Shown here in pieces: positions 12,451 to 31,897 of a stretch of DNA of 38,985 nt. Location: assembly GCA_947627665.1 (NCBI GenBank), contig CANQWX010000018.1, forward strand, positions 1-38,985. The letters are read 5' to 3'. The stretch is from an uncultured Clostridia bacterium (GTDB taxonomy: Bacteria > Bacillota > Clostridia > Christensenellales > Borkfalkiaceae). The first letter of the stretch is position 1; each line of letters starts with the position of its first letter. The position numbers were made by a program, and so were the translations under genes. Below the pieces are notes generated by a model. That model was given only the letters and a program-made list of their open reading frames with translations, had not been told where the DNA came from and did not search any database.

Positions 12451-12540
12451 CATGCAGAAAGAGGGGTTACTTCGCCTACGGCTCGTGCCGCCCTTAGAGA
12501 AATAGAACCGTGGGCGGGACGCGCCTTTGGCGGCGCGCCC
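12451..12540 (-). repeat. decayed third fragment of the tRNA-tail element
   Basis: The core signature CGCGCCTTTGGCGGCGCGCCC lies at 12520-12540 (plus-strand reading), as in the two intact copies, and GCAGAAAGAGGG at 12454-12465 equals 12 nt of the tRNA-Ser acceptor/T-arm strand. The two parts are about 54 nt apart instead of adjacent, and the end reads CAT instead of TGG (CCA). It looks like an old, disrupted copy next to the intact tRNA-Ser copy. Confidence 0.55.
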
Positions 12541-12608
12541 GAGACATCTCCATCGCATTATAATAAAGCGAGATTTCTCGACTTCACTGCGTTCCGCTCG
12601 AAATGACG
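12541..12608. repeat. dispersed MITE-like repeat, copy B
   Basis: 12541-12579 matches 2407-2445 at nearly every base. The right end GCTCGAAATGAC (about 12596-12607) is the better-preserved terminal arm. The left arm is missing, replaced by the tRNA-tail element fragment. Confidence 0.6.
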
Positions 12609-12623
12609 AAAACCGCTTACAAT

Positions 12624-12662
12624 CACGAACGCCCGAGGGCAAAAAGCCCTCGGGCGTTCGTG
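12624..12662. other. hairpin anchored on the copied CCA end
   Basis: CACGAACGCCCGAGGGC (12624-12640), loop of five A, GCCCTCGGGCGTTCGTG (12646-12662). A perfect 17-bp stem. Read on the minus strand it begins inside the CCA of the copied tRNA-Ser tail and has T5 in the loop; no U-tract follows the stem. Confidence 0.8.
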
Positions 12663-12862
12663 GCGCAGAAAGAGGGATTCGCGCCTTTGGCGGCGCGCCC
12701 CGGTGAACAGCACACTGTGCTGTTCAGTTTGCGGCAAAGCTGTTCTGTTTACAAACAATTCGCCCGCAAACCGATTGCTCCCGCAATCGCCTCCACCCTC
12801 GAATCCCTCTTAAATTCTGTTCATCACAAAAGTAGCGGGACGAAAAACCGTCCCGCTACTTT
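12661..12862 (-). repeat. tRNA-tail element, copy at tRNA-Ser
   Basis: Read on the minus strand, downstream of tRNA-Ser. After the CCA-anchored hairpin come an arm AAGAGGGATTCG (12800-12811), a core (12682-12799) and finally a perfect 21-nt copy of the tRNA's own 3' end (12661-12681, T-loop C56 through CCA). The arm is fully complementary to the first 12 nt of the copied tail. Core stems visible: GTTTGCGG/CCGCAAAC (12727-12734, 12764-12771), GAACAGCAC/GTGCTGTTC (12705-12713, 12717-12725) and GCGCC/GGCGC directly beside the tail. The period from real to copied CCA is 202 bp, against 203 bp at tRNA-Leu. No reading frame fits; it is either a non-autonomous element or a structured RNA. Confidence 0.85.
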
Positions 12863-12864
12863 TG
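12827..12864. other. hairpin anchored on the CCA of tRNA-Ser
   Basis: CAAAAGTAGCGGGACG (12827-12842) and CGTCCCGCTACTTTTG (12849-12864) around AAAAAC. On the minus strand the CA of the tRNA's CCA is part of the 16-bp stem and the T-run is in the loop. It may act as terminator, but the U-tract is not after the stem. Confidence 0.8.
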
Positions 12865-12952
12865 GCGCAGAAAGAGGGATTCGAACCCCCGTATACATTC
12901 CTGCATAACACGATTTCGAATCGTGCGCGTTCAACCGCTCCGCCATTTCTGC
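12863..12952 (-). tRNA. tRNA-Ser(CGA)
   Basis: A 90-nt gene with the long variable arm of a serine tRNA. The acceptor strand begins GCAGAAA and ends TTTCTGC, discriminator G, CCA encoded at 12863-12865. The anticodon stem CACGA/TCGTG carries loop TTCGAAA, giving CGA (decodes UCG). Its last 21 nt are repeated 202 bp downstream. Confidence 0.95.
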
Positions 12953-13058: not shown

Positions 13059-13103
13059 ATCCCCGTATATGTCGGCTGTTATGACCCACATTAAGGAGTG
13101 ACT

Positions 13104-14081
13104 ATGTGTACTGCGATCACCTATTCCACCAAAGATCATTACTTCGGCAGAAATTTCGACCTCGAATATTCCTACCGCGAAGAGGTCACCGTCGTGCCGC
13201 GCAATTTTCCCTTCCGCTTCCGCAGGGCGGGAGAGTGTGCATCCCATTATGCCCTCATCGGTATGGCCTTCGTGCAGGAGAATTATCCGCTCTTCTATGA
13301 CGCGGTGAACGAGAGGGGACTCGGCATGGCGGGGCTTAACTTCCCCGGGAACGCCGTCTATTTTCCCGAAAAAGAGGGCAAAACCAACGTTTCGCCCTTT
13401 GAATTCATTCCCTATATCCTCGCAAAGTGCGCCAATGTCGCCGAAGCAAGAGAGCTTTTGAAAAACGTCAACCTTGTGGACATTCCGTTCCGCAAAGAAC
13501 TGCCGCTCACGCCTCTCCACTGGATGATTTCCGACAAGAACGCATCCATCGTCGTCGAGAACACCGCGGCGGGACTGCAAGTCTACGAAAATCTCGTCGG
13601 GGTCATGACGAACAATCCGCCTTTTCCCATGCTCATGAACCGCCTTGCCGACTACATGGCGCTGTCGATCGAGCCGCCGCGGAACAACTTTGCGGGCGTC
13701 GATCTTACGCCCTACAGCCGCGGCATGGGTGCGATGGGATTGCCCGGGGACCTTTCCTCCGCTTCCCGCTTTGTAAAAGCCGCTTTTACGCGCGCGCACT
13801 CTCTCTCGGGCGAGAGCGAGGAGGAGAGCGTGAGCCAATTCTTCCACATCCTCGATTCCGTGGAACAGCAGCGCGGCTGCGTGAAGCTCGGCGAACGGTA
13901 TGAGATCACCTTATACGCCTCGTGCTGCAATACCGACCGCGGGATCTACTACTATAAAACCTACGACAATTCCCGCATCCACGGGATAGACATGCGGCGG
14001 GAGAATTTAGACGGGAAGGAACTCGTCTGTTATCCGCTGATCGAACACGAAGAATTCGATATCCAAAATGAGAACGCATAA
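13104..14081 (+). CDS. cbh: bile salt hydrolase (choloylglycine hydrolase family)
   Basis: 325 residues, an N-terminal nucleophile (Ntn) hydrolase that splits glycine or taurine from conjugated bile acids. I chose ATG 13104 because Cys2 then becomes the nucleophile after Met removal and AAGGAG is 7 nt upstream. Expected active-site residues are present: Cys2, Arg16, Asp19, Asn79 (in MAGLNFPG), the Asn of GVMTNNPPF and the Arg of LSSASRFVKAAF. The pattern GMGAMGLPGDLSSASRF is typical of the bile salt hydrolase/penicillin V acylase family; GVMTNNPPF favours the bile salt branch, although a penicillin acylase cannot be excluded by eye. Intracellular, no signal peptide. It stands alone with its own promoter and ending hairpin, and points to life in an animal gut. 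Confidence 0.88.
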   Translation: MCTAITYSTKDHYFGRNFDLEYSYREEVTVVPRNFPFRFRRAGECASHYALIGMAFVQENYPLFYDAVNERGLGMAGLNFPGNAVYFPEKEGKTNVSPFEFIPYILAKCANVAEARELLKNVNLVDIPFRKELPLTPLHWMISDKNASIVVENTAAGLQVYENLVGVMTNNPPFPMLMNRLADYMALSIEPPRNNFAGVDLTPYSRGMGAMGLPGDLSSASRFVKAAFTRAHSLSGESEEESVSQFFHILDSVEQQRGCVKLGERYEITLYASCCNTDRGIYYYKTYDNSRIHGIDMRRENLDGKELVCYPLIEHEEFDIQNENA

Positions 14082-31575: not shown

Positions 31576-31610
31576 CCAAGACGCCGCCCCGCAGTGGGGC
31601 GGCGTCTTGG
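31576..31610. other. hairpin anchored on the copied tRNA-Leu CCA
   Basis: CCAAGACGCCGCCCC (31576-31590) and GGGGCGGCGTCTTGG (31596-31610) around GCAGT, 15 bp perfect. On the minus strand the whole CCA of the copied tail is in the stem. No T-run follows. Confidence 0.8.
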
Positions 31611-31810
31611 TGCCGCTGACAAGATTTGCGCCTTTGGCGGCGCGCCCCGGTGAACAGCGCACTATGCTGTTCCGTTTGCGGAGAAACTATCTGCTTTCCA
31701 ACAGTTTGCCCGCAAACCGCTCGCTCTCGCTCGCGCCTCCACCCTCAAGTCTTGTCATAAATTCGTATCCCCATTGAAATGGGGGGAGAAAAATCCTCCC
31801 CCCATTTCAA
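31608..31810 (-). repeat. tRNA-tail element, copy at tRNA-Leu
   Basis: Same architecture as at tRNA-Ser, read on the minus strand. A CCA-anchored hairpin (31771-31813) comes first, then an arm TGACAAGACTTG (31746-31757), a core (31629-31745) and a perfect 21-nt copy of tRNA-Leu's own 3' end (31608-31628). Arm and tail pair at 11 of 12 positions. The first 30 nt of the core next to the tail (31629-31658) are identical to 12682-12711, the 13 nt CGCCTCCACCCTC (31734-31746) are identical too, and both copies keep GTTTGCGG/CCGCAAAC and GAACAGC/GCTGTTC pairs. The tail differs from the serine copy exactly as the two tRNAs differ. Period 203 bp. Confidence 0.85.
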
Positions 31811-31813
31811 TGG
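31771..31813. other. hairpin anchored on the CCA of tRNA-Leu
   Basis: CCATTGAAATGGGGGGAG (31771-31788) and CTCCCCCCATTTCAATGG (31796-31813) around AAAAATC, an 18-bp perfect stem that includes the tRNA's encoded CCA. On the minus strand the T5 run is in the loop. Confidence 0.8.
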
Positions 31814-31897
31814 TGCCGCTGACAAGATTTGAACTTGCACGATATTGCTATCACGGGATTCTAAGTCCCGCGCGTCTGCCGGTTTCGCCACAGCGGC
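31811..31897 (-). tRNA. tRNA-Leu(TAG)
   Basis: 87 nt with a long variable arm. Acceptor GCCGCTG/CAGCGGC, anticodon stem CGGGA/TCCCG with loop CTTAGAA giving TAG (Leu), T-loop TTCAAAT, discriminator A and CCA at 31811-31813. Its last 21 nt are repeated 203 bp downstream. Confidence 0.95.

Follow-up and report, generated by a model that had tools for sequence, protein, structure and literature searches.

Structured repeats downstream of clostridial tRNA genes carry direct and inverted ends that match the adjacent tRNA

A family of small, structured repeats of ∼200 bases sits directly downstream of tRNA genes in uncultured gut Clostridia, in most cases with a direct copy of the 3' end of the adjacent tRNA at one end and a short inverted copy of it at the other. 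The element is real, widespread and well structured. It was recognized at two tRNA genes of an uncultured Clostridia bacterium, in what is called here the window (the whole analyzed stretch of DNA, 38,985 nucleotides of contig CANQWX010000018.1). The explanation favored here, with moderate confidence, is an rtT-type tRNA-tail element whose units spread and multiply, both ends being re-copied from the new host tRNA. Its occurrence at so many tRNAs and the copying of the tRNA end in both orientations are the surprising parts.

Read in the direction of the tRNA, both units in the window have the same layout: the CCA of the tRNA is followed by a palindrome (h1), a short spacer, an inverted repeat (IR), a core of ∼117 nt, the tail and a second palindrome (h2) (Table 1). 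The tail is a 21-nt copy of tRNA positions 56 to 76 (C56 to A76), and these borders of the direct repeat are near-constant among the copies. The IR is the 12-nt reverse complement of tRNA positions 56 to 67 (AAGAGGGATTCG at the tRNA-Ser locus, TGACAAGACTTG at the tRNA-Leu locus). An earlier note on this DNA had reported the exact 21-nt tails at both loci, periods of 203 bp (Leu) and 202 bp (Ser), and a common core between tail and tRNA. All three observations hold: the tails and periods were confirmed by reading the sequence, and the two cores align well, including the 30 nt adjoining the tail and the stretch CGCCTCCACCCTC. ARAGORN confirms both host genes. The IR and the near-perfect palindrome that follows each CCA at both loci had been overlooked, and no connection to the E. 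coli tyrT/rtT repeats had been made. At the Ser locus, a degenerate tail-like stretch near position 12455 accompanies the probable decayed third unit, and a gene of the choloylglycine hydrolase family (PF02275, E 4.4e-98; 13098-14081) lies beside the array.

Table 1. Features of the two loci, in window positions. R1 is the covariance model of the family; L and G labels denote loci and genomes of this analysis, G000 being the window's own genome.
Feature	Position	Strand	Basis
tRNA-Leu (TAG), host of the first copy	31811..31897	-	ARAGORN; Rfam RF00005
h1, palindrome from the tRNA-Leu CCA, T-rich loop, terminator-like	31771..31813	-	sequence reading
IR at Leu, one mismatch	31746..31757	-	sequence reading; pairs with the tail
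Core at Leu: hairpins P2 (GNRA loop), P3, P4, P5	31629..31745	-	R1 match L003:1486-1637; structure analysis
Tail at Leu, exact last 21 nt of tRNA-Leu (31811-31831)	31608..31628	-	sequence reading
h2, palindrome from the CCA of the Leu tail copy	31576..31610	-	sequence reading
tRNA-Ser (CGA), host of the second copy	12863..12952	-	ARAGORN; RF00005
h1, palindrome after the tRNA-Ser CCA	12827..12862	-	sequence reading
IR at Ser, perfect	12800..12811	-	sequence reading; pairs with the tail
Core at Ser: hairpins P2 to P5	12682..12799	-	R1 match L001:1507-1659, 169 bits
Tail at Ser, exact last 21 nt of tRNA-Ser (12863-12883)	12661..12681	-	sequence reading
h2, palindrome after the Ser tail copy	12624..12662	-	sequence reading
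Probable decayed third unit of the Ser array	12503..12601	-	weak R1 match L001:1349-1447, E 6.6e-4; DNA match 12520-12540

Used as a DNA query, the Ser unit returned 16 matches in its own genome (E up to 1). It also found matches in 19 of 41 genomes, each belonging to the same genus. A covariance model (R1), the check proposed in the earlier note, takes the family beyond its own genome. Built from an alignment (A2) of 30 copies picked because both ends were present, R1 matched 72 of the 103 genomes of the genus (E 1e-3), 20 of 297 genomes of the order (E 1e-4) and three of 291 genomes of the class, the last three all in the same family. The matches in the order fall in four genera of this family and in one genus of another family, where they are weak (best E 1e-8 to 1e-12). 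An exact 20-mer from the core gave at least 117 matching stretches in named genomes and none in viral contigs; among the 80 matches listed, 78 belong to genomes named Clostridia, Clostridiales, Candidatus Gallimonas or Candidatus Coproplasma. The matches listed also include a Pseudomonas contig (L262) and a Parvularcula contig (L280), which may be chance or real.

Individual copies were compared at collected loci, a set that omits the weakest matches of the genus. R1 was run on 179 of 200 loci, the other 21 being 19 repeats of the same places and two weak DNA matches (L015 and L016). The 223 matches obtained were reduced to 220 by dropping identical contexts within a genome and to 212 by removing eight antisense echoes; tandem arrays occur among the loci. 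A tRNA or tmRNA gene lies upstream (same strand, within 1.2 kb) of 150 copies in 64 genomes, and the comparisons with the adjacent tRNA refer to these; the 62 copies without such a gene (at contig edges, in arrays or in islands) fall outside them. The distance to the upstream gene is mostly ∼50 nt and stays within 70 nt in 117 of the 150. The hosts comprise 18 tRNA kinds, namely Ser (CGA, GGA, TGA, GCT), Leu (TAG, CAG, AAG, CAA), Pro (CGG, AGG), Gly (CCC), Thr (CGT, GGT), Arg (ACG, CCT, CCG), Val (CAC) and Lys (CTT), together with tmRNA. A long variant of the unit, with an extra module of ∼100 nt after P4 reading GGGCTCCC...GGGAAGAGGAGC-like, is present in L044, L052, L056, L060, L062 and L064.

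Across these hosts, the tail mostly matches the end of the neighboring tRNA. It equals the last 21 nt of the neighbor exactly in 88 of 150 copies, with at most one mismatch in 105 and with at most two in 111, against a mean of 3.46 exact tails when neighbors are dealt at random (highest 11 in 1000 shuffles). Ranked among 73 tails, the adjacent tRNA is best or tied in 122 of 150 copies. An exact tail occurs at least once in 17 of the 19 host kinds, and the remaining two have a single-mismatch tail. The earlier proposal of one family with ends adapted to different tRNAs is thus borne out well beyond Leu and Ser, as tails within one mismatch span all 18 tRNA kinds and tmRNA, over 55 genomes. The IR, ∼50 nt after the CCA, is fitted in the same way: of the 150 copies, 96 have an IR complementary to the adjacent tRNA at all 12 positions, 128 at 11 or more and 140 at 10 or more. 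When the tRNA is instead drawn at random from those for other amino acids, a fit at 12 positions never occurs among the 150 and a fit at 11 occurs in three (register shifts of up to 3 being permitted for real and random comparisons alike). In a control, a tail copy was found at 117 of 158 tRNAs with a core nearby versus six of 86 without one; of the six, five prove to be units of a divergent or rtT-like kind, and the sixth is simply another tRNA gene next door.

A tail that does not match its neighbor, which the earlier note had named as evidence against its reading, was found in a minority of copies: 45 of 150 differ at two or more positions, some of them being cut by contig ends, decayed, swapped or of the long variant. 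With register shifts permitted, 37 of these 45 copies have an IR that agrees with the adjacent tRNA at 11 or more of its 12 positions, and 14 have one that agrees to this extent with its own tail. The IR is closer to the tRNA than to its own tail in 30 (for example in G016, G059, G086 and G114), equally close in 11 and less close in four. Two units of G114 (L180 and L185) have an IR that fits the adjacent tRNA and a tail that is that of another tRNA, as expected from recombination within the shared core or from a chimeric mis-assembly. At Leu-TAG of G103, the IR and the tail fit each other and not the present tRNA, which indicates that the refreshing of the ends is not constant.

The consensus fold has five helices: P1, in which the IR pairs with the tail, and P2 to P5. 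Of the cells, 93.9% are paired, compared with 81.1% in shuffles and 31-48% in slid versions. Shuffling lowers the covariation score from 0.334 to 0.107 and the number of pairs changed on both sides from 20 to 13.3. Further pair types are no more numerous than in shuffles (42 versus 41.0), and P3 and P5 hardly vary across the alignment. Among the 178 copies that pass a filter on P3 and P5, the P2 loop is GNRA in 147 of 155 four-base loops, and tandem G-A mismatches are often present in P2. Misfits in P2 to P5 comprise 29 G-T and 18 A-C, a mild excess, so that the case for the core being an RNA relies on the GNRA loops and the tandem G-A mismatches. Together, these features of the sequence point to a structured RNA in the tRNA sense. 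The earlier idea of an RNA that mimics a tRNA end gains from this to the extent that the predicted RNA would end in tRNA 3' sequence. P1 shows no such G-T excess (39 G-T, 36 A-C), and the misfits between IR and tRNA are equally balanced (25 G-T, 26 A-C). Since a helix maintained by selection on RNA alone should be rich in G-U pairs, the balance in P1 suggests that its arms are copied at the nucleic-acid level.

Core distances were compared among 113 normal-length loci with a tRNA. The mean distance is 0.237 between different tRNAs of the same genome; copies at one tRNA in separate genomes average 0.295, and all other pairs 0.308. Because copies of the same genome are closer than copies at the same tRNA, a single orthologous history was rejected, despite a weaker same-tRNA signal. 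The nearest core lies in the same genome for 15 of the 113 loci (shuffled mean 1.6, highest 7), and at the same tRNA kind of another genome for 23 (shuffled mean 8.8, highest 21). Both excesses indicate spread within genomes together with some inheritance in place. In G043, the cores at Ser-GCT and Pro-CGG differ at two of 118 columns (98% identical) and their h2 palindromes are nearly identical, whereas the tails differ at nine of 21 positions and the IRs at four of 12, each fitting its own tRNA. Near-identical cores with ends of their own tRNAs make the ends look copied from the target rather than changed by stepwise mutation. Among nine close pairs within a genome, the ends are significantly more diverged than the cores in six (p below 0.01). 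The three non-significant pairs are all in G114, and in G059 and G103, which are among the six, a decayed tail inflates the difference of the ends. Gene conversion of the core alone could be part of this pattern.

Relatives also offer a tRNA without the element, which the earlier note had suggested looking for. At the gpsA-Val-Leu(TAG) locus, the window's genome and G113 carry different unit types, and G091 has a bare tRNA followed by one terminator; this empty orthologous site may stand for gain or loss. Of 70 gpsA-anchored loci, 60 have no detected Leu-TAG gene and 10 are informative, three scored as occupied and seven as empty. Close reading showed a degenerate unit in the 'empty' locus of G103, and that of G088 has only 71 nt after the tRNA. 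No occupied and empty pair with identical flanks was found among the loci, so the insertion step and its direction were not seen. The Ser-CGA site of G007 and G024, considered as a further empty orthologous site, shows an identical tail without the element; it was set aside, as its orthology could not be demonstrated. In the collected loci, one terminator motif appears in eight contexts: after the last tail in six occupied loci (five sorted by script and L059 by hand), directly after the bare tRNA in G007 (L034), and after an end reading GGTGCACCA (L127, reverse strand). The occurrence of one motif after the last tail and after a bare tRNA indicates that the inserted piece is probably h1-IR-core-tail, h2 being the old terminator.

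In the mechanism proposed here, the unit (h1, spacer, IR, ∼117-nt core and 21-nt tail) lies downstream of the tRNA CCA and upstream of the terminator that belongs to the tRNA, where read-through from the tRNA promoter probably transcribes it. The IR and the tail would form the closing stem of the folded RNA, as for the E. coli rtT RNA. Units would move between the tRNA genes of one genome and multiply in tandem, and both ends would be re-copied from the new host tRNA, the tail directly and the IR inverted. The copying step that sets the two ends from the host tRNA may be a DNA- or RNA-based template switch performed by host enzymes. One conceivable route is that copying starts from the tRNA CCA, halts at C56 of the T-loop, jumps to the core and snaps back to leave an inverted copy; such a snap-back copy, speculative as it is, would account for the constant start at C56 as well as for the inverted arm that matches it. 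As to function, the idea favored at present is that tRNA transcripts release the element as an RNA, which has also been proposed for rtT. Ends templated by the target, if true, would represent a new mode of genome mobility.

A search of the 103 genus genomes for reverse transcriptases and Y1 transposases identified no helper enzyme. Reverse transcriptase (PF00078) is present in 24 genomes, 16 of the 72 with an R1 match and eight of the 31 without; the Y1, RAYT-like transposase (PF01797) is also present in 24, 18 with and six without (tallies counted by hand). In the window's own genome, which has eight R1 matches and is 89% complete, no PF00078 was found and one Y1 gene is present. A retroelement with its own reverse transcriptase and a REP/BIME with a Y1 transposase partner were both rejected, as neither PF00078 nor PF01797 tracks R1. 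Host replication or repair, or another helper, is therefore more likely. The earlier description of a minimal non-autonomous tRNA-targeting element remains plausible as regards the element; for the helper that the description implies, neither of the two families qualifies.

The fitted ends could have been produced in other ways. A resident regulatory RNA would be immobile and rtT-like, with selection on the IR-tail stem or on pairing between IR and tRNA, ends following the tRNA through compensatory change, and cores homogenized by gene conversion. Such an RNA would explain the conserved structure with its GNRA loop and tandem G-A mismatches in the tRNA sense, the recurrence of the same tRNA kinds across species, the excess of nearest cores at the same tRNA kind (23 of 113 against a shuffled mean of 8.8) and the closeness of cores within genomes. 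It is at odds with the G043 pair, in which 13 of 33 end positions changed against two of 118 in the core, with the downstream palindrome left nearly identical. The empty orthologous site of G091 and the G-T to A-C balance, equal between IR and tRNA (25/26) and near-equal between IR and tail (39/36), also speak against it, and we hold this explanation to be rather improbable. The same G043 pair, with its changed IR and hardly changed core, weighs against an element guided to its target, in which the IR would be a 12-nt guide for the T-arm, an enzyme acting in trans would create a 21-nt target-site duplication, and the guides would vary beforehand. This reading draws on the 30 of 45 ill-tailed copies whose IR favors the adjacent tRNA over its own tail, on the near-constant borders of the 21-nt repeat at C56 and A76, and on the original terminator after the last tail. 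With no reservoir of guide variants seen and neither of the tested enzyme families tracking the element, it appears unlikely.

Scars of tRNA-integrating islands, that is attL and attR left behind once an island was lost, would also duplicate a tRNA end. The tail corresponds to the usual identity block of such elements, the unit is bordered by recombinase-like gene ends in L047, L051 and L114, and tRNA 3' fragments persist in L004, L089 and L137. Such scars would not be expected to share a conserved folded core among 18 tRNA kinds and tmRNA, to contain an inverted copy or to form tandem arrays, and the island-like ends precede whole units rather than form them. At both window loci, moreover, 181-182 nt separate the repeats, with no integrase or island there, and an origin as island scars is accordingly very improbable. 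Simple local duplication of tRNA-flanking DNA, the alternative raised in the earlier note, could account for the tandem arrays. It is refuted by the presence of the same core at unlinked tRNAs in many species, since that core does not come from the local flank. The association of tail copies with the core in the control, the six exceptions being explained otherwise, also speaks against it, and we give it practically no credence.

Island-like sequences do border some units. Gene ends resembling the C-terminus of a serine recombinase abut the element in L047, L051, L052 and L114, and by eye only in L169, with Pfam support for a recombinase in L047 only. In all of these but L052, which lacks it, GGTGCACCA directly continues the gene end where the tRNA would be, as if islands inserted exactly at tRNA 3' ends with the CCA as junction. 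In L004, L063, L089, L137 and L195, the unit is preceded by the 3' part of a tRNA only, from the T-arm or the anticodon loop, as left by islands of the tyrosine-integrase type.

Among known systems, tRNA-integrating islands (tyrosine or serine recombinases) likewise show a direct repeat of the tRNA 3' end. They are kilobases long and bear an integrase, and to our knowledge they have neither an adapted inverted copy nor a shared folded core. Tail duplications at tRNA genes are not always integrase scars. The REP/BIME sequences of enterobacteria are likewise small palindromic repeats; we know of none that is tied to tRNA ends or has adapted ends. Passages of the literature connect them with rtT: an rtT-similar cluster is linked to BIMEs (PMC2965389), and rttR is listed as REP-containing (PMC12306157).

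The closest known case is the E. coli tyrT repeat with its rtT RNA (RttR, Rfam RF00391). For decades the tyrT repeats have stood as a curiosity, their tRNA tail unexplained. At the tyrT locus of E. coli K-12, three 178-bp units follow tyrV and one follows tyrT. All four end in the exact last 19 nt of tRNA-Tyr, and those behind tyrV have the inverted 10-mer GGGGAAGGAT at +59 (the unit after tyrT lacks the exact 10-mer). A 371-base query matched 4680 of 5426 E. coli genomes, and the array varies in length; in L204, the second Tyr gene is followed by four units. The tyrT/rtT repeats and the Clostridia element share the position right after a tRNA, the copy of the tRNA tail, the inverted copy and the tandem array, and the RF00391 model extends from inverted copy to tail. 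The two differ in their cores, between which comparison by eye found no convincing homology, and in the start of the tail (A58, 19 nt, in E. coli; C56, 21 nt, in Clostridia). The E. coli repeat lies beside tRNA-Tyr in the two loci with tRNAs examined, and the copy of strain IH5 has no annotated tRNA.

RF00391 makes no call on the window at its gathering cut-off (45 bits) and has no match in L001, L003 or L017 at E up to 5. Over the genus it matches two of 103 genomes at E 0.01, none above the cut-off, and it has no match at E 1e-3 in 398 genomes of the phylum. Its best match in the window's own genome scores 28.2 bits (G000:C4:67875-67999, L202), just after tRNA-Ser(TGA), and has the tail of that tRNA and a 16-nt inverted copy. 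A weak match in G103 (C4:97990-98110, L206) also lies beside Ser-TGA with a tail and an inverted copy, and is followed by an R1 unit in the same array. We take these rtT-like sites and the R1 units to share one layout with different cores. As in RtT, the Clostridia unit lies directly downstream of a tRNA with a copy of its tail, and an inverted tail copy closes the structure; having the rtT layout but an RF00391 score below the cut-off, it is set apart as a variant of the rtT kind.

Published passages on RtT add further points of comparison. A tandem G-A motif is reported in RtT (PMC7657543). In Actinobacillus pleuropneumoniae, RtT RNAs near tRNA-Asn and tRNA-Lys are reported by Northern blot, and release of RtT from tRNA transcripts is cited (PMC4986893). 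There, too, RtT occurs at non-Tyr tRNAs, but it is described as upstream of the tRNA, and the passages in question make no mention of adapted ends (PMC4986893). In the open-licence literature searched, no description of tRNA-adapted ends was found. Tentatively, and with more doubt than conviction, the Clostridia and enterobacterial repeats may belong to a common class of mobile RNA that targets tRNA genes generally and re-forms its two ends on the template of the tRNA at which it lands. Two questions can now be tested: how DNA gains direct and inverted copies of a neighboring tRNA, and what role is played by an RNA that tRNA transcripts release. The layout of the E. coli tyrT repeats is now seen at 18 tRNA kinds and tmRNA, so that a single odd case has become a class offering natural replicates by the dozen.
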